Position numbers and translations under genes: made by a program
Notes under the pieces: model-generated
The model's database searches: none
The model's input: only the letters and a program-made list of their open reading frames with translations
Told to the model about the DNA's origin: nothing
Origin: Candidatus Hodarchaeota archaeon
GTDB taxonomy: Archaea; Asgardarchaeota; Heimdallarchaeia; Hodarchaeales; YT1-039
NCBI GenBank assembly: GCA_016840025.1
Contig: JAEOTF010000196.1
Span: 1 to 15,522, forward strand
Length of the DNA stretch: 15,522 nucleotides
Reading direction: 5' to 3'
Part shown: positions 798 through 8,349 of the stretch, in pieces
How the letters are laid out: the number at the start of each line of letters is the position of its first letter
Position numbering within the stretch: position 1 is the first letter of the stretch

Positions 798-1658
798 ATG
801 AGCTCTGAAGATGAATTAATGCCTGATGAAGAAGAAACTGAAATAGAAAAAGCCTTAAAATTAGGGTTTCGTGTCCCCAAGAAAGACCCTGTTCGATCTA
901 TAAGAGTTGATCTCTGGAAAACCCGATTTCACCGAGATAAGATGGGGATAAAGAAACAAGACGAATTTATGGCCAAATCTCGACAATGGAATCGAGATCT
1001 AAGTCAAATTGGGGATATTAGCGAAAAAGATAAGAATTTCGGCAAGATTGCCATTCGTGAGGGATTTTGGGATGATGTTAAAGATAAACAAAGTCGAAGA
1101 CTGGTTTTAAAGCTTTTTAGTGATTCAATATCTTGGCTTGGCACTCTTGAAGAAATGGTGGGCGAGGAATTAGAAGGAGAGTACGCACGTAGCAAGACTA
1201 TGATTAAACATACTGTAAAACCGTATTTTAAAGTGGTATCGGCAAAATATAGTTATGTAACGCCCTTACGTCAAGAAAGAAAAAGGATTTTTAAATTTCA
1301 TAAAGTTGATGCCAAAGAGAAATCCATAGAGCTCTTCGTACTGAAAGAAACCCGTTGGAGTCGTGGTGACGACTGGCATGTCTATTCCTCTAGGGGAAAT
1401 GTAAAGGTGGCTGAAGTTGATGGTAAACTCTTTGATATCGGTGGTGAATATACCGTTAAGATATTCGACGAGAAATTGGCTAAAGATAGAATGTTCATCA
1501 ATGTTTTGATTTTTTTTGCCACTAGCCGCCGCTATCAGAATGATATCAAGAAAAAAATCACAGATATTAGAAAAGACATGCTGAAGGGAAAATTTACACC
1601 CAAAGCGACTATAGCAGAACTAAACCTCTCAACTAATCCTCGTAGGTTAAGACGGTAG
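798..1658 (+). CDS. Hypothetical protein with possible LURP-one/tubby-like C-terminal domain
   Basis: A 286-residue protein with no signal peptide and no clear membrane segment. The first 20 residues are very acidic, and residues 20-150 are charged and mostly helical in character. Residues 160-250 alternate beta-type stretches. They contain WHVYSSRGNVKVAEV, then GKLFDIGGEYTVKI, and finally a hydrophobic helix-like run near 230-242 (RMFINVLIFFAT). That layout, a strand-rich barrel with a 'GKLF' turn ending in a buried hydrophobic helix, resembles the LURP-one-related/tubby C-terminal fold shared with phospholipid scramblases. The match is by eye and weak. The C-terminus is basic. ATG at 798 follows AGGTG by six bases, inside a palindrome. 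The next gene lies 161 bases on, so it may be transcribed separately. Confidence 0.6.
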   Translation: MSSEDELMPDEEETEIEKALKLGFRVPKKDPVRSIRVDLWKTRFHRDKMGIKKQDEFMAKSRQWNRDLSQIGDISEKDKNFGKIAIREGFWDDVKDKQSRRLVLKLFSDSISWLGTLEEMVGEELEGEYARSKTMIKHTVKPYFKVVSAKYSYVTPLRQERKRIFKFHKVDAKEKSIELFVLKETRWSRGDDWHVYSSRGNVKVAEVDGKLFDIGGEYTVKIFDEKLAKDRMFINVLIFFATSRRYQNDIKKKITDIRKDMLKGKFTPKATIAELNLSTNPRRLRR

Positions 1659-1684: not shown

Positions 1685-1819
1685 TAGCGATTTTCAACTT
1701 CTTTCTTAAGTTTAGAGATAACCATAGTTTTATTTACTTTTCCTTCCTTAGAATCACGGGATTGCCTGAGAAACTAGTTACTTTTGAACCTTAGTTTATT
1801 GGTTTCATTGGAGCCTTCT

Positions 1820-2650
1820 ATGATGCCCACAGAGGAAGAAGTCATTGATAAGGTAATGGAGACCATACGAGAGAGGAAAAACCTCAAAGAGCTCAAAAGA
1901 GCTCTCAGACATAAAGATAAGAAGTTATTGGAACGTATTCTCGACGATATTTGTCATTTATTTCAGCCTAACTATACAGCGAGAATCTCATTGCGAGATT
2001 CACTAGGAGAAGAAATTTGTACTCGGGGAACTGCTGTTTCTGAAATAGGAATAGAATATCCAATTATAGACAGAGATCAAGATATTAATGTGTTCTTGCG
2101 CACTACCATCTCTCTTAAAGCTGAAACGGATAAAAAAGTTAACATTCTTCTTGTAGGCTTATTCTATGCGGGTAAAACCACTATTATGCGCTCTATTCAA
2201 AGTGGTTATTTAGAAAAAACAGATCCAACAACAGGCATGGAGATACAGATTTTTGATTATAAAAAATTAAGATTCAGTGTTCAGGATATGGGGGGCCATG
2301 AATCATACCGCACTCTCTGGAATTCTATGTTGGAGTACTCACAACCGAAGGTTATTTGTTGGGTTGTTGATGCAACTGATCATGCAACCTTTGAAGAATC
2401 ATTAAATGCTTTAGACAAGCATATTCTTAGGTTAAATAAAACCAAAGCTGTTCCAATCATTTTAATAGCAAATAAGCAGGATCTTCCATTGGCAACAACC
2501 CCAAATGAGATATCTGAAATATTTGAGGCTTCAAAACGATTTCAAGGGAGAAAGTGGAAAACGATTGGGGCAAGTGCAAAAGATGGTACGGGTCTAGCAG
2601 AGCTATTAAGTGTTCTTCGTACTTTTTGTAGTCTAAATGATGAAGATTAA
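1820..2650 (+). CDS. Arf/Sar1-like small GTPase with N-terminal extension
   Basis: A GTP-binding switch protein of 276 residues when started at ATG 1820. A longer TTG start at 1784 exists, but GGAG lies six bases before ATG 1820. Residues 1-105 are an extension: a charged helical part (about 5-50), then a strand-rich part (about 55-100). The G domain follows: P-loop GLFYAGKTT (113-121), a switch I Thr in TDPTTG (about 134-139), DMGGHES (156-162), NKQD (218-221) and ASAK (251-254). The LW following switch II (DMGGH...YRTLW) is typical of the Arf/Sar1 branch. His replaces the Arf glutamine after GG, as in Sar1. There is no N-terminal glycine for myristoylation and no amphipathic Arf helix, because the extension takes that place. 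The extension may be a regulatory or partner-binding domain. The GTPase call is firm; the role is unknown. Confidence 0.9.
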   Translation: MMPTEEEVIDKVMETIRERKNLKELKRALRHKDKKLLERILDDICHLFQPNYTARISLRDSLGEEICTRGTAVSEIGIEYPIIDRDQDINVFLRTTISLKAETDKKVNILLVGLFYAGKTTIMRSIQSGYLEKTDPTTGMEIQIFDYKKLRFSVQDMGGHESYRTLWNSMLEYSQPKVICWVVDATDHATFEESLNALDKHILRLNKTKAVPIILIANKQDLPLATTPNEISEIFEASKRFQGRKWKTIGASAKDGTGLAELLSVLRTFCSLNDED

Positions 2651-2693: not shown

Positions 2694-3584
2694 TCACGAT
2701 TTTCTTCTTTTCAATCCCGCTAAGGCTTCAAATATCGTTTTGACACATAGAAATCCAGTTATATCTGCAATATCTTCAGGTGGAGCATACTCAACAATAT
2801 CCATCCCTATTACATTTACCTGAGTAAGAAGTTCCCGGATAGTAATAAGAAGCTCGTAAGAAGTAATTCCACCAGGGTCAGGGATTCCTGTACCTGGGGC
2901 AAAAGCAGGATCGACTACATCAATATCTACTGTTAAGTAAGTCCGCATATCGCGATTGACCGCTTTAAGGATTGATGAAATGCCTTGTTCGCGAAATTCA
3001 TCTACAGTCCAAGCACTTATCTTAGGATGAGATAGCATCTCTAGTTCTTCTGCTTCAAGACTTCTAATTCCAATGAGATATGCTTTCTGTAGGTTTGGAA
3101 GCTCGATGATGCGTCTTAAAACATTTGCATGTCCAAGTCGATGGCCAAGAAAAAGATCAAGTAAATCGGCATGAGCATCTAACATAATTATATTAGTGGG
3201 AGCTTCATGGGCGAAACCAGCGACGAGTGGAATAGTAATGGAATGGTCTCCACCTAAAAAAATTGGTAAAGTAGGGTATTTGGTGAGTTTTCTTGCTTCT
3301 TTTAGAATAAGTGTATAATTTTGTTCAATGTTTTCGCTTAAAGACATATTTCCTAGATCTTTTAAAATTAAATTGGTGATATCGACACGAGAAGAACCAA
3401 TTGGGGACATAACAGCTGCTAATTCACGAATTTTTGCAGGGGCTTCATGGGCACCTTTCCGATAGAAAGCGCTTTTTGCAAAGGGAACACCAAGAATAAT
3501 CACATCAGTTTCTTTTATAGTCGCACTTGGATGTTCTAATCCTCCCCAAGCCCATTCACCCTTATTAATCTCAATATTATCCAT
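2694..3584 (-). CDS. speB: Agmatinase-type ureohydrolase
   Basis: Arginase/agmatinase family, binuclear Mn enzymes that release urea from a guanidino compound, here probably agmatine to putrescine. With the start at ATG 3584 (296 residues) the metal-binding motifs are GGDHS (111-115), DAHAD (136-140) and DIDVVDP (220-226), followed by AFAPGTGIPDPGG. The late segment GMDIVEYAPPED contains the family's conserved acidic residue. ATG 3584 is preferred to GTG 3593 because AGGTGA lies five bases before it. The ORF overlaps the end of tiaS by eight bases (ATGGATAA), so the two are translationally coupled. TiaS consumes agmatine, which supports agmatine as substrate here too. Substrate is inferred; other guanidino compounds are possible. 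Gene symbol is by family and context. Confidence 0.88.
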   Translation of the reverse strand: MDNIEINKGEWAWGGLEHPSATIKETDVIILGVPFAKSAFYRKGAHEAPAKIRELAAVMSPIGSSRVDITNLILKDLGNMSLSENIEQNYTLILKEARKLTKYPTLPIFLGGDHSITIPLVAGFAHEAPTNIIMLDAHADLLDLFLGHRLGHANVLRRIIELPNLQKAYLIGIRSLEAEELEMLSHPKISAWTVDEFREQGISSILKAVNRDMRTYLTVDIDVVDPAFAPGTGIPDPGGITSYELLITIRELLTQVNVIGMDIVEYAPPEDIADITGFLCVKTIFEALAGLKRRKS

Positions 3585-4923
3585 GAAGGTCACCTAAACA
3601 CCAAAACTTGCCCGATTTAAGTAATTTATGCCCAGAAAAGGGTTTTTTCTTTTCCTGACCATATCGTATTGGAGGTTTTGCCAAATGTCTATGAGAACCA
3701 GCGGGAACAACGAATTGTGAATTTTCTTTTAAAGATAAGGGTACTTTTTTAACTATCCGAGCATTTTCGGGTAGTTTACTCTTACAAACTTCACATTGAA
3801 AACCTTTATTTCTACCTTCGGACTTCATTCGCTTTCCACATTCACAAACTGGATTTTGTACCTCAATCCTTTCAATGAGTTTAATGATTTTAATCATTTC
3901 AAGATTTAATGCCTTTTTTTTTGTTTTTTTGTTGAGGTGTACTCCACCCCAAACATGAATTGTATCACCAATTTTAAGCTGGATGATGATATCTCTAAAT
4001 GATTTTGTTGGTTCATAGGCACAGCACAATATTTCGCCCGAATTGTCCGTAATTTTGAAGAAAACATGACCTCCTTGGATTTTTTTAGGAGCAGTAATTA
4101 TTATACCTGAAAAATTTGCTGGAGTATACAGACTCAATCGGGCGATAATGGTTGGTTTTTCAAAGTGCTGATCTGTTCCTTGGTTTGTCCTAAAAATAAC
4201 CCATCTTTCAATAGATTCTAAAGGCTCAATTATTTTCCATGCGCTTAATACTGCTTCAGGCGTTTCACCGCGAATTCCAGCGAACACAGGATCTGGACCA
4301 TGGGGTGTTATCAGAATTTTTCTTTTTCGATAATCAAGATTAGTAAAAGTCAATGGTTTGGTCAGTTGATCTGCTTTAAAGACAGATTGTTGGTCAATTC
4401 TCCTGTTAGATGGAATTCCTCGGTTTTTGGCTATACGATAAGATATGAGTTCATAGGTAAAATCATGAAAAGGAAGCCCTATTGCAGCTATCGCGCCCAC
4501 TATTCCTCGTTTTTCATTATAACCCTTTATTATACAGCTTCGGGGGTCAATTGCTCTTTCTACATCCTGTAGTGGGACAAAAGATCTAAGAGCTTTCCAA
4601 GCGATATTTTCAAGGTGTGAATCTATTGAACCTTTTACTAAACAGAGACCTGGATTCGTATTTGAAAAGTCTAAATGCGCCATTTTCATTAAAATGGATT
4701 CAGCGATGTCCCAAACCCGTTCAGGATTATTAGATTCAAGATGAAATGCCACAGCGGCATTTCCCTTAGTTTTAAATGGTATATTTGGATTTAAACGAAC
4801 CAAACGTGGGAAATCTTTGAATTCACAAAAAGAAACAAGTTGCTCAAGAATTATGGCAGCAAGATAAGTAGTACACATTCCTTTTGGAGAATCCGTATCA
4901 TCTATACCAAGGTGCAGTTCCAT
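3577..4923 (-). CDS. tiaS: tRNA(Ile2) 2-agmatinylcytidine synthetase TiaS
   Basis: TiaS joins agmatine to C34 of the AUA-decoding tRNA-Ile, using ATP, so that the CAU anticodon reads AUA instead of AUG. The protein has 448 residues. It opens with the signature GIDDTDSPKGMCTT (6-19). GIVGAIAAIG (140-149) and ILITPHGPDPVFAGIRGE (203-220) belong to the catalytic region. FRTNQGTDQH (245-254) leads into an OB-fold-like tRNA-binding region (about 257-345). A zinc ribbon follows with Cys360, Cys362, Cys377 and Cys380. The C-terminal tail is lysine-rich. Start ATG 4923 has AAGGA about ten bases upstream and a likely TATA element at 4970-4980. The downstream ureohydrolase overlaps the end by eight bases. 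Family and reaction are firm. Confidence 0.93.
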   Translation of the reverse strand: MELHLGIDDTDSPKGMCTTYLAAIILEQLVSFCEFKDFPRLVRLNPNIPFKTKGNAAVAFHLESNNPERVWDIAESILMKMAHLDFSNTNPGLCLVKGSIDSHLENIAWKALRSFVPLQDVERAIDPRSCIIKGYNEKRGIVGAIAAIGLPFHDFTYELISYRIAKNRGIPSNRRIDQQSVFKADQLTKPLTFTNLDYRKRKILITPHGPDPVFAGIRGETPEAVLSAWKIIEPLESIERWVIFRTNQGTDQHFEKPTIIARLSLYTPANFSGIIITAPKKIQGGHVFFKITDNSGEILCCAYEPTKSFRDIIIQLKIGDTIHVWGGVHLNKKTKKKALNLEMIKIIKLIERIEVQNPVCECGKRMKSEGRNKGFQCEVCKSKLPENARIVKKVPLSLKENSQFVVPAGSHRHLAKPPIRYGQEKKKPFSGHKLLKSGKFWCLGDLHG

Positions 4924-5026: not shown

Positions 5027-5596
5027 TCATTCTTGTTTTTTCCTAGGGTCTATTCTTTGAAGAAAGCCCGTATCAAGAATTAATTTGCCTAGGTTTTCTA
5101 TAACTTCAGTAGTATTCCAAATTTTGAGCGCTGAAATCTCTATGAACGAAATTTTTCGACCCATTTCCTTAGATAGCCACTCCGAGAAATCTCTGCCTTC
5201 TTCCGCAGTAACCTGGATTTCATTGGCTAAATCGATCTTATTCCCCACTAAAACTGCAGGAATTTTTCCTACAACTGATTTGAGTTCCACTACCCACTTT
5301 TGGAGATTGAAGAACGAACTTCTCATGGTTACATCATAAACAAGAACTGCACCATGGGAACCTGCGTAAAAAGCTTTCCTAACAGAAGCAAATGCATCTT
5401 GACCCGAGAGATCCCAAAACTGGAGGGTTAATAGTTCTCCTGAGGAAAGGCGGAGGTTTTTCACAGAGATATCTGCGCCTACAGTCGCTAGATACTCCGA
5501 ATCTATCTTCTCTTCCAAAAAAGATCGTAATAAAGTTGTTTTCCCTACAGTTGCATCTCCAAGGAAGATAGTTTTTAGCAGAAGGGGATGTGCCAA
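5027..5596 (-). CDS. Rab/Ras-like small GTPase
   Basis: A 189-residue single-domain GTPase. From TTG 5596 the motifs are P-loop GDATVGKTT (13-21), switch I Thr38 in YLATVGADI, DLSGQD with the catalytic Gln (62-67), NKID (119-122) and SALK (155-158). The WDxSGQ form and the GKTTLLRSFLEE stretch place it with Rab/Ras rather than Arf. The C-terminus (PRKKQE) has no cysteine, so there is no prenylation site and membrane association must come from a partner. A longer frame back to 5674 exists, but its first 26 residues are an out-of-frame reading of the upstream acidic repeats. TTG 5596 lies one base after the upstream stop and six bases after GGTGGGG. It is the last gene of an operon with a coiled-coil and a Roadblock-like protein. 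Confidence 0.9.
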   Translation of the reverse strand: MAHPLLLKTIFLGDATVGKTTLLRSFLEEKIDSEYLATVGADISVKNLRLSSGELLTLQFWDLSGQDAFASVRKAFYAGSHGAVLVYDVTMRSSFFNLQKWVVELKSVVGKIPAVLVGNKIDLANEIQVTAEEGRDFSEWLSKEMGRKISFIEISALKIWNTTEVIENLGKLILDTGFLQRIDPRKKQE

Positions 5597-5597
5597 C

Positions 5598-6860
5598 CTA
5601 TTCCCCACCTTCTTTCTCTTCCACTGGTTCATCCTCCTCTTTCTCTTCCACCGATTCATCTTCCTCTTTCTCATCTGGAAAATCTTTCAACTTGGTCGAA
5701 AGATCAATAACTGGAACGGATGGACTGGGAACAGGAGGAAGCTGAAGTTGTAGGACCATTGTTTTAAGTTCTTCTGCCTTATTGACAGTTTTACTGAGTA
5801 CATCAAATACGAAATCGAATTTTTCATTAACACGGCGCTCAATGAGGGCTTGTGTTTCGTCTCTAAAAACTTTGTAGTCTTCTTTGTATTGACTCATTGT
5901 CTCAATTGCCTGGTTCAGTAAATCCCTGAAGTCAGCCATACCCTCACTAAGCCCTTTCACCATTTCAGCGCGAATTTCATCTGCTTTTTGACGAATCTCT
6001 TTATCCAGTGCATCTACCCGCGTAAAAATTTGTTGAGCATCATCCTTCTGGAAAAAAAGATCTTCAGATTCATTTCGCCACTCCTCTAGCATTTGGCGCG
6101 ACGATTTTCCGATTACGATGACTTCACTTCTTATGCTTTCTTCTAAACCTGTTAGAATGCGTTGGAAATATTGCATTTGTTCCGCTTGTTCATTCTTCAG
6201 CATATTGGTATATTTAGGTAGGTCTTGGCGTATTTGATTCAGTATATCAGCATGTGACTGTAAGGTTGTTCCATAGTTTTCTAATATCTTATAAAATTGC
6301 TGACTTGCTGCTTTTAAGGTCCCAATCCCACTTACATTCACCTCTATAGAATTTTCGAGTTCTTCACGATTCTTTATTTGTTGTCCATGAAGTTCATCAA
6401 CTCTTTCTGTGATAGTACCGAATTCTTCATCCAGACGGGTTGTCAGTTCACTCCTTAATTTATCCACCTTTTCTGTGAGCTGCTTAAAAGCAGCCATCAG
6501 ATTTTGGATAAGTTCCATTGCTTCCTCGTTTTGATCATTAACTTGAGATTGGAGAGTAGCTAAACGTTCATCAACTGATATTTTAAACTCATTTAAAGCA
6601 GTTGACTGATTCGCAATCGCTGAGGCTTTTTCTTCGATGACATACTTATTTTTGGTAAATTGTTCCTCAAACGTAGTTATCTTAGATAAGATTTCTGAAA
6701 GTTTTGTTTCATGGTCTTCAAAGCGGTCATCAAACTTAGAAAGAAGCGATTCAATCTTTTTGGTTTCTTCTTCCCTGTCCTTGAGTTGAGTACTTACCTG
6801 AGTTATTTTGTCTTCTAAGTTTTTGAGTTCTTTTTGGATATGTTCTACATTTTCAGACAC
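5598..6860 (-). CDS. Long coiled-coil protein with acidic repeat tail
   Basis: A 420-residue soluble protein that does not match a family I can name. Residues 1-370 are almost entirely heptad-like, rich in Glu, Lys, Gln and Leu, with breaks near 175-195 and 250. This predicts a long, probably oligomeric coiled coil. A proline-rich hinge follows (LPPVPSPSVPVIDL, about 378-391). The tail is acidic, with two copies of a nine-residue unit EEDE(S/P)VEEK. There is no signal peptide or membrane segment. GTG 6860 is the start. Its ribosome-binding site AGGTGA contains the stop codon of the upstream Roadblock-like gene, and the Rab-like gene begins one base after this gene's stop. A role as tether, scaffold or effector of that GTPase is inferred from operon structure only. 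Confidence 0.8.
   Translation of the reverse strand: MSENVEHIQKELKNLEDKITQVSTQLKDREEETKKIESLLSKFDDRFEDHETKLSEILSKITTFEEQFTKNKYVIEEKASAIANQSTALNEFKISVDERLATLQSQVNDQNEEAMELIQNLMAAFKQLTEKVDKLRSELTTRLDEEFGTITERVDELHGQQIKNREELENSIEVNVSGIGTLKAASQQFYKILENYGTTLQSHADILNQIRQDLPKYTNMLKNEQAEQMQYFQRILTGLEESIRSEVIVIGKSSRQMLEEWRNESEDLFFQKDDAQQIFTRVDALDKEIRQKADEIRAEMVKGLSEGMADFRDLLNQAIETMSQYKEDYKVFRDETQALIERRVNEKFDFVFDVLSKTVNKAEELKTMVLQLQLPPVPSPSVPVIDLSTKLKDFPDEKEEDESVEEKEEDEPVEEKEGGE
5614..5667. repeat. Two tandem 27-base repeats encoding an acidic tail
   Basis: Units at 5614-5640 and 5641-5667 differ at only four positions, with a partial third copy after 5667. On the minus strand each unit encodes nine residues of the form EEDE(S/P)VEEK in the coiled-coil protein. 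In-frame repeat expansion or contraction would change only tail length. Confidence 0.85.
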
Positions 6861-6864
6861 GAAA

Positions 6865-7308
6865 TCACCTTCTTGAATTTACTTTCTCACCTAGAGTTAT
6901 TAATTGATTTTTAGTTATGCTAAAGTGCTCATCGATGTCCTCAATCACTTTTAAAATTCGAGTTTCTAGGCTTTCGTCAGCTACTATTCGTTGAGTAGGA
7001 ATTGATTTAATAATGAACTTTTTTTGTCGTTTCCAATGATTTGCAACCATTTGAAAGCTCTTAGCCTCTGCTACCAAAGCTATTTCAACTCCCTCAGTAA
7101 TTGGTTCTATTGCAGCTGTGAATTCGGTATTATCTAAGAGAAGATCTAAAATTCCTTTTTTCAATTCTGAAATATGTTTTCGGAGAACGAGAAGACCTTG
7201 AGGATCTTTTTCTTCAAGGGGGATGATACGTCCCGATTTATGGAGATAAATCCCACAAACAGGAAATCCTTGGACAAATTTTGTTACTAATTTTGAGACT
7301 TTAGACAT
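6865..7308 (-). CDS. Roadblock/LC7-like protein
   Basis: A 147-residue protein from ATG 7308; GTG 7356 would add 16 residues. The layout resembles a Roadblock/LC7 domain. A first helix (SKVSKLVTKFVQ) leads to GFPVCGIYLHKSGRIIP, matching the family's 'pGVxGxxxxxxxGxxI' strand pair. A long helix follows (about 42-58), then the strands EFTAAIEPI and VEIALVAEA. After about residue 105 a charged helical tail extends beyond the domain. Roadblock proteins such as bacterial MglB dimerise and act on Ras-like GTPases, and a Rab-like GTPase lies two genes downstream. ATG 7308 is chosen because it begins directly at the domain and because a TATA-like box at 7373-7382 predicts transcript start near 7351, below the GTG. 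The family call is by eye. A longin-type fold is the main alternative. Confidence 0.65.
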   Translation of the reverse strand: MSKVSKLVTKFVQGFPVCGIYLHKSGRIIPLEEKDPQGLLVLRKHISELKKGILDLLLDNTEFTAAIEPITEGVEIALVAEAKSFQMVANHWKRQKKFIIKSIPTQRIVADESLETRILKVIEDIDEHFSITKNQLITLGEKVNSRR

Positions 7309-7372
7309 GCTAATGGGTTCACAACCATCATCAAGAGATTTCAGATACTTTAGCACTATAAAGAGCCATATG

Positions 7373-7382
7373 TATTTTTAAA
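7373..7382 (-). promoter_or_regulatory. TATA-like box of the Roadblock/coiled-coil/GTPase operon
   Basis: The minus strand reads TTTAAAAATA. At usual archaeal spacing the transcript would start near 7351, giving a leader of about 43 bases to ATG 7308. No other gene lies between, so this would drive all three genes. Confidence 0.45.
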
Positions 7383-7590
7383 GTTTGAACTTCTGTTGTA
7401 AGCGGATAAAGATGACCTTATTGCGTGTTTTTTTATCTATATGCAAAAGGGATAAGTTGGTTCAAGTGGATTTTTCTTACATAAATCATAACATTGATTT
7501 ATGGATAAGAGTTTCATTTTATTCTATACTTTTCCTTTTAACATTGGAGGCTTAACATTTTTTTTGTTAATAAAAAATTATCTTTAATGG

Positions 7591-7598
7591 TTTATATA
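7591..7598 (+). promoter_or_regulatory. TATA box giving a probably leaderless transcript
   Basis: TTTATATA is centred about 24 bases before ATG 7618, so transcription should begin at or next to the start codon. No ribosome-binding sequence precedes that ATG. Both facts fit a leaderless mRNA, which is common in archaea. Confidence 0.6.
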
Positions 7599-7617
7599 AC
7601 ATTAAAGAGCGATTCTG

Positions 7618-8349
7618 ATGAAAATTTTCATTGTGATGCCAACATATAACGAACGAGAAAACATGGAAAAGATGATTCCTGCTTTAAAAACCCTTTTTGA
7701 GCAGAATCAACTTGATGGTCATGTACTTGTTGTTGATGATAACAGTCCTGACGGAACAGCAGAAGTAGTTGAGGCTTTTCAAGAAAAGGATCCAGAATAT
7801 ATCTATCTGTTATCCCGATCAGGAAAGTTAGGATTGGGGACTGCCTATAAAGCAGGTTTTCAGAAAGCACTTGAGTTAGGCGCTGATGTTATCTTTGAAA
7901 TGGATGCTGATTTTAGTCATGATCCAGCGATGATTCCAATTATGGTAGAGGAAATTGGTGAATATGATCTCATAACAGGATCCCGAAGAATAAAAGGTGG
8001 TGGAGTAGAAAACTGGGGATTTCATCGTAAACTAACCTCTTGGGGCGCTACTACACTTGCAAGAATTGTCTTAAGATTAAAAACAAAAGACGTTACCACA
8101 GGTTATCGAGCATATAGACGAGAAATACTAGAACAACTTGATTTTGATTCTATTAAAAGCAATGGCTATGCTTTCCAGCTAGAGCTTATCCATAGAGTAG
8201 AAAAAGAGCTGAAAGGTAGAACGAAGGAAGTCCCGATCATCTTTAAAGATCGTGAATTAGGTAAATCAAAATTAGGGCTTGGAGATATTACTGAATTCTT
8301 CGGGATGGTCTTTCGGCTCCGATTAAGAAGATATAAAAAATCAAACTGA
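7618..8349 (+). CDS. Dolichol-phosphate mannosyltransferase (DPM1-like, GT2)
   Basis: Transfers a hexose, usually mannose from GDP-mannose, to a polyprenyl/dolichyl phosphate at the cytoplasmic membrane face, supplying sugar for N-glycans or lipids. The 243-residue protein has the family-2 glycosyltransferase fold. Visible motifs are PTYNER (8-13), VDDNSPDGT (39-47), EMDADFSHDP (94-103, the DXD-type metal site), TGSRRIKGG (120-128), TTGYRAYRR (160-168), NGYAFQLEL (182-190) and FKDRELGKSKLG (209-220). It ends at a basic RLRLRRYKKSN with no C-terminal membrane helices. It is therefore of the short soluble type like human DPM1, which needs partner proteins for membrane anchoring; no such partner is visible here. 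The exact sugar is not provable from sequence. It is transcribed from its own TATA box, probably without a leader. Confidence 0.92.
   Translation: MKIFIVMPTYNERENMEKMIPALKTLFEQNQLDGHVLVVDDNSPDGTAEVVEAFQEKDPEYIYLLSRSGKLGLGTAYKAGFQKALELGADVIFEMDADFSHDPAMIPIMVEEIGEYDLITGSRRIKGGGVENWGFHRKLTSWGATTLARIVLRLKTKDVTTGYRAYRREILEQLDFDSIKSNGYAFQLELIHRVEKELKGRTKEVPIIFKDRELGKSKLGLGDITEFFGMVFRLRLRRYKKSN

Follow-up and report, generated by a model that had tools for sequence, protein, structure and literature searches.

Two adjoining genes, for a small protein and a long coiled coil, recur next to Ras-family GTPase genes in Asgard archaea

Until now, a contig of Candidatus Hodarchaeota archaeon (JAEOTF010000196.1; all 15,522 nucleotides of it are called the window here) had been read from its sequence only as carrying a three-gene GTPase module. 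We found that the genes for the small protein and the long coiled-coil protein of this locus recur as adjacent genes in 12 of the 227 Asgard genomes searched (11 complete, one truncated at the end of its contig), which takes the locus beyond chance, and that the first gene to follow the coiled coil on its strand encodes a Ras-family GTPase in 12 of the 13 loci, window included. The type of GTPase differs between lineages, so that the conserved unit is the pair and not the triple, and the core is the small protein plus the coiled coil, with a GTPase slot that probably changed hands. The features of the window discussed below are as follows.

5027..5596, minus strand: gene for a Rab-like small GTPase, 189 aa, TTG start (ORF, Pfam Ras)
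5598..6860, minus strand: gene for the long coiled-coil protein, 420 aa, GTG start (ORF)
5781..5870, minus strand: most conserved block of the coiled coil, residues 331-360, motif I-[DE]-R-[KR]-V-N-E-K-[FY] (alignment A4)
6865..7308, minus strand: gene for the small partner protein, 147 aa (ORF)
7309..7617: divergent intergenic region, 309 bases, with a weak TATA-like TTTAAAAATA at 7382 (minus strand)
7618..8349, plus strand: divergent family-2 glycosyltransferase, a neighbour outside the module (Pfam Glycos_transf_2, synteny)

The three genes and their products

The three minus-strand genes are as tightly packed as the sequence-only reading had described them, the small gene being separated from the coiled-coil gene by 4 bases (TTTC) and the latter from the GTPase gene by a single base. 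The motif AAGGTGA lies ahead of the GTG start of the coiled coil and AAGGTGG ahead of the TTG start of the GTPase, and both are plausible ribosome sites for these starts. In P0003, the protein most similar to the GTPase (81% identity, on a 2,863-bp metagenome contig), the listed sequence begins at the equivalent leucine, although this listed start may not be the true one. For the small protein, an alternative upstream GTG at 7356 would give a length of 163 aa; in the alignment, the N-termini of its relatives lie near the ATG at 7308, with the exception of locus L142. A TATA-like box had also been proposed ahead of the genes. The plausible TTTAAAAATA is present 74 bases ahead of the small-gene ATG, but the promoter claim is weak, as the 309 upstream bases contain 7 A-box-like matches where shuffled sequence gives 4.4.

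The GTPase belongs to the Ras superfamily (Pfam Ras, 1.5e-39), its nearest solved structure by sequence is the Thorarchaeota Rab 7ezb (6.7e-33) and all five G-boxes are intact (GDATVGKT, T38, WDLSGQ, GNKID, SAL), which agrees with its earlier naming as Rab-like. Its remarked lack of a C-terminal cysteine extends to the whole protein, since none of the 189 residues is a cysteine, and it thus differs from eukaryotic Rabs, which are recognised by a prenylated cysteine at the C-terminus.

The prediction of a long coiled coil was confirmed by a hydrophobic periodicity of 3.4-3.65 residues over residues 1-375 of the window protein, with a z of about 11 over shuffled sequences. The same periodicity stands 6-13.5 s.d. 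above shuffles in 11 relatives, and the controls gave -0.8 (GTPase), -0.3 (TiaS) and 2.2 (small protein). After about residue 372 the protein ends in a proline-rich, acidic tail. Conservation is concentrated in residues 331-360, with a mean identity to the window of 0.44 against 0.08-0.23 in other blocks of 30 residues. In the 12 rows of alignment A4, I340, R342, V344, N345, E346 and K347 are invariant, and so are K222, F232, E241, R244 and E246 outside the block. Judging by this pattern, residues 331-360 would be the best candidate for a binding site. Matches of the coiled-coil protein in Pfam (below threshold) and PDB are to generic coiled coils only; 29 PDB chains (apolipoproteins, myosin, keratin and other coiled coils) were taken as composition matches, and so was a profile match in genome G088 (2e-12, model positions 34-143 only, 20 genomes searched). 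E-values of this protein are unreliable by themselves because of such matches, and we take its relatives as homologous because their genes adjoin that of the small protein and because certain positions are conserved.

The small protein had been read as Roadblock-like, and this part of the earlier reading found no support. Together with 11 relatives, 23-32% identical to it, it forms alignment A3, to which genome G002 adds a truncated member. Searches of Pfam and NCBIfam with the 12 members returned chance-level matches (best E 0.0015 and 0.0025), no longin- or TRAPP-type profile of either database was among them, none of the 12 matched Robl_LC7 even with E up to 10 allowed, and a sequence search of the PDB gave no relative above chance. 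An AlphaFold2 single-sequence model was unusable (pLDDT 39.8). The protein belongs, by these comparisons, to a family without described relatives in Pfam, NCBIfam and PDB.

It may be asked whether it is nonetheless a very divergent Roadblock, longin or profilin fold, which as a dimer would act as a GAP or GEF in the manner of MglB or TRAPP, with the coiled coil as tether. We consider this possible but doubtful. A crude propensity method predicts helix-strand-strand-(?)-strand-strand-strand-helix-helix, which is close, except for the second helix, to the Roadblock order alpha-beta-beta-alpha-beta-beta-beta-alpha given in the part of PMC10933270 used here. The propensity tables are approximate, and the same predictor finds most elements in two Roadblock groups while missing some, so that it is imperfect even on true Roadblock proteins. 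Profile-profile comparison by hhalign was made with 30 Roadblock ORFs (of 54 matches) from seven pair-carrying genomes, divided into 3 groups. The best local match to one subgroup is in register on helix 1 and strands 1-2, and is not significant (P 0.3). Against this fold, the local probabilities were 0.2-0.5% for the 3 groups and for all of them together, whereas Roadblock subgroups compared with one another reached 95.9 and 97.9% in two of three controls (2.3% in the third), and the global scores fell below the mean of 30 column-shuffled controls.

Elsewhere in the window we observed an Arf-like GTPase domain (1784-2650, plus strand; Pfam Arf, 2.8e-35) behind an N-terminal extension of about 110 residues, preceded by a gene for a 286-aa protein (798-1658, plus strand) with no Pfam or NCBIfam match above chance. 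A TiaS gene (3577-4923, minus strand) has matches in 113 of the 227 Asgard genomes at E up to 1e-30, with a patchy distribution; the window protein is at most 47% identical to the TiaS of those genomes and its position in a tree of 32 is unsettled. The lineage of the window is probably poorly sampled within the Asgard archaea.

Recurrence and surroundings of the pair

Single-query protein searches had recovered the small and coiled-coil proteins of the window and no others (in one of them among 7993 candidates scored), no copy of the module was found at the 80 GTPase loci kept out of at least 305 relatives, and IMG/VR scans found nothing. Weak matches at GTPase loci (L017, L024 and L075 are examples) were dropped. 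As a side observation from these loci, the contigs of L006 and L007 are titled Bathyarchaeota and bear Asgard-type Rab-like GTPases; the title of L007 is probably wrong. The whole-genome searches overturned the resulting view of both proteins as orphans. With the small protein as query, 11 matches (E from 5e-20 to 3e-5) were kept on the double requirement of E < 1e-4 and an adjacent coiled-coil gene; 30 of the 227 genomes had matches at E up to 0.1, and the 19 dropped ones (E from 3e-4 up), which include a 150-aa frame in G130 (E 0.086), were mostly broken or oversized frames. The coiled-coil search at E up to 1e-5 found the identical 11 genomes, at adjacent positions, a co-occurrence that holds for the at most seven places that were scored in each genome; coiled-coil genes that lack the small gene may exist beyond these. 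A search with a profile built from the small proteins matched 15 genomes, of which three (E about 0.008) were dropped and 12 kept, adding G002. There, the truncated small gene is followed by a gene for a coiled-coil protein of 224 aa, in which the motif takes the form IERKINEK, and then by a GTPase gene.

The two genes are adjacent and on the same strand in all 12 genomes, and, when each is read from its first start codon, 10 of the 11 complete loci show an overlap between them. The carriers with names, five of the 12, are Heimdallarchaeota bin6, bin272 and S146_22, Hodarchaeum mangrovi FT_5_011 and Hodarchaeota YT1_021; from these we infer that the pair belongs to Hodarchaeales and near kin. 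In the other 215 genomes, including Hodarchaeota CSMAG_10 (G060), no match was kept. Since the relatives form one related group, the 12 loci amount to few independent events.

The order small gene, coiled-coil gene, GTPase gene, which the sequence-only reading could attach to no named system, recurs in 11 of the 12 other pair-carrying genomes, and its idea of a compact GTPase system in archaea that includes a long coiled coil stands to this extent. Ten genomes (L138-L147) share an arrangement in which GTPase A and a divergent family-2 glycosyltransferase precede the small gene, the coiled-coil gene, GTPase B (171-176 aa) and GTPase C (184-192 aa), these last four on one strand. GTPase A is seen in nine of the ten, the contig ending first in L145, and in L139 an extra opposite-strand gene lies between it and the glycosyltransferase. 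The overlap of the small and coiled-coil genes, read from the first start codon, is 4-47 bases in all ten; 52-170 bases separate the coiled coil from B and 13-32 bases B from C. The exception to the order is G061 (locus L148), where the pair lies 58 bases apart, the coiled coil has 231 aa and no GTPase gene is adjacent, a C-like one being found about 2.6 kb downstream. A glycosyltransferase of the same family as that of the window occupies the equivalent place in 10 relatives, with 32-36% identity. Orthology was rejected as a reading of this synteny, and we claim it at family level only, because G002 and G061 have more similar glycosyltransferases (51-54%) at other places.

Downstream of the module, a same-strand gene for a protein of 1191-1202 aa follows in nine of the ten Hodarchaeales-type loci (L138 and L140-L147; the contig ends first in L139), with an opposite-strand gene before it in L138, L140 and L147 (an MFS transporter in L140). 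The one such protein scanned, that of L140, is an SMC protein (SMC_N). A gene for 281-298 aa also follows the module in nine of the ten loci, with no Pfam match in L140. The SMC neighbour may point to a chromosome- or division-related role of the module in these loci; its absence from the window and from L194 means that it is not part of the module core.

These surroundings bear on whether the GTPase is a bystander, the pair being a structural (cytoskeletal or nucleoid) assembly that shares its transcript with a chance GTPase. The SMC neighbour would suit such an assembly, as would the change of GTPase type between lineages and the solitary pair of G061, and GTPases are plentiful in these genomes (13-29 matches each at E up to 1e-30). 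Nevertheless, the presence of two GTPase clades at one slot would be hard to obtain by chance if GTPases make up roughly 1-2% of genes, a rough estimate from 44-78 candidate places per 3-5 Mb genome with about one gene per kilobase assumed, and we regard a bystander GTPase as improbable.

The GTPase beside the pair

GTPase trees were used to place the genes that occupy the slot. In the first tree, of 136 rows, the window GTPase and P0003 stood apart and unplaced, while in two thinned trees (89 and 57 rows) they grouped with D-type GTPases, with an SH-aLRT of 99 in both. GTPases B and C together form one clade in all three trees (SH-aLRT 97-99). A possible explanation without any exchange is that the window GTPase descends straight from an ancestral module GTPase, B and C being its duplicated, fast-evolving orthologues. 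The branches are long, and a constraint uniting the window, B and C in one clade was not rejected (p-AU 0.44 with 89 rows and 0.26 with 57), for which reason we hold a change of GTPase to be likely and not proven. The grouping of the window with the D-type in both thinned trees and the separate B and C clade speak against common descent at the slot, although the larger tree left the window unplaced, and we rate it as unlikely. That the GTPase type changed beside a constant pair is thus, from these trees, the likelier course.

D-type genes occur elsewhere in at least nine of the 12 pair-carrying genomes. In eight of nine loci, the D-type GTPase gene is preceded by another conserved gene, of 93-109 aa, which is a candidate for a second GTPase-linked partner. 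This gene, whose product ends in ...LLQEGHKYR, was observed at L003:5674-5955, L013:5646-5927 and L017:1585-1914 and in loci L222-L226 and L228-L230.

The B and C GTPases also share a substitution, Glu in place of the catalytic Gln of DxxGQ, in all 20 sequences of L138-L147; L194 has it in its B-like gene and L148 in its C-like gene. The tree set contains 120 further GTPases, picked for their likeness to the window GTPase, and none of these has Glu (108 have Gln, 5 other residues and 7 were unread). In Ras, the same change from Gln to Glu speeds intrinsic hydrolysis.

A proposed role for the pair

The small and coiled-coil proteins are probably dedicated partners of GTPases, since their genes stand side by side and nearly always before a switch gene. 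Constant pairing and tight linkage, together with a GTPase that is nearly constant in its presence and changeable in its type, fit a scaffold or regulator pair with GTPase clients. We therefore propose, at about even chances, that the two proteins form a two-subunit scaffold or regulator complex for small Ras-family GTPases, the neighbouring GTPase being its client. The coiled coil would form a long rod, on which the small protein would dock through its own C-terminal helix. The client would be the D-type Rab-like GTPase in the lineage of the window and the tandem B and C GTPases in Hodarchaeales; having no lipid anchor, the GTPase could bind to the conserved block near the C-terminus of the rod, to the small protein or to both, and be positioned and read out in this way. 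In this sense, we infer the complex, its docking site, an effect on the nucleotide cycle, the cell location, the binding of the GTPase and any tethering from the genes and their conservation. Against clients of this kind it counts that the pair of G061 has no adjacent GTPase, that the 12 loci are few independent events and that in ten loci the first GTPase begins at the distance from the coiled coil given above.

Compact clusters with a Ras-family GTPase beside small partner genes are known from MglA/MglB of bacteria and from the conservons of Streptomyces, where a Ras-like GTPase shares an operon with a Roadblock partner (PMC13343842, PMC11016934). The present locus differs from both in that its partner cannot be recognised as a Roadblock protein, in the constant presence of a long coiled coil and in the lack of a histidine kinase gene beside it. 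With the Asgard Rab-like GTPases treated in PMC10933270, in the sections cited here, the window GTPase shares its closeness to the Thorarchaeota Rab and, as in MK-D1, the absence of a C-terminal cysteine. According to the same sections, GTPase genes of MK-D1 are generally not in operons with RB, longin or TRAPPC3 genes; in contrast, partner genes of the window type are linked to the GTPase and come from undescribed families. The idea of a small adaptor, an extended protein and one or more GTPases is shared with the eukaryotic Ragulator-Rag and TRAPP assemblies as portrayed there, and Rags form heterodimers where B and C are a tandem pair (PMC10933270). No sequence relation to these assemblies was found, and in Pfam the B and C proteins of L140 fall to Ras, with no match to Gtr1_RagA (E up to 0.001). 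Golgins and other coiled-coil tethers are recruited by Rabs. The likeness of our locus to them consists in a long coiled coil adjoining a Rab-like GTPase, here by gene order, while its matches to solved coiled coils are generic.

Searches of the open-licence literature on Asgard GTPases, their partners and their gene context, at the level of titles and abstract openings, brought up no description of this module; the remark on MK-D1 in PMC10933270 comes nearest. GTPase gene modules as such are known, and what is new here is that such a module of a prokaryotic small GTPase includes two partner families not described before. Whether operons reveal the targets of Loki GTPases was put as an open question in a 2016 review (PMC4917890, in the part cited), and a 2024 structural study states, in its cited sections, that the layout of genomes is of little help in assigning regulators to GTPases (PMC10933270).

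A wider reading, which we think rather unlikely, is a pre-eukaryotic system of switch, adaptor and rod, in which the constant pair of new families would hold unanchored, lineage-specific Rab-type GTPases, including the Gln-to-Glu pair, which might hydrolyse GTP without a classical GAP. The pair has been found so far only in a small Heimdallarchaeia-type group that surrounds the order reported to be the sister of eukaryotes, and Hodarchaeales are given as closest to eukaryotes in the cited part of PMC10307638. Asgard archaea have many Rab-like GTPases, and the conserved pair supplies concrete candidates for their working partners. Furthermore, the coiled coil is relevant to the question of whether Rab-type switches had rod-like partners before eukaryotes arose.
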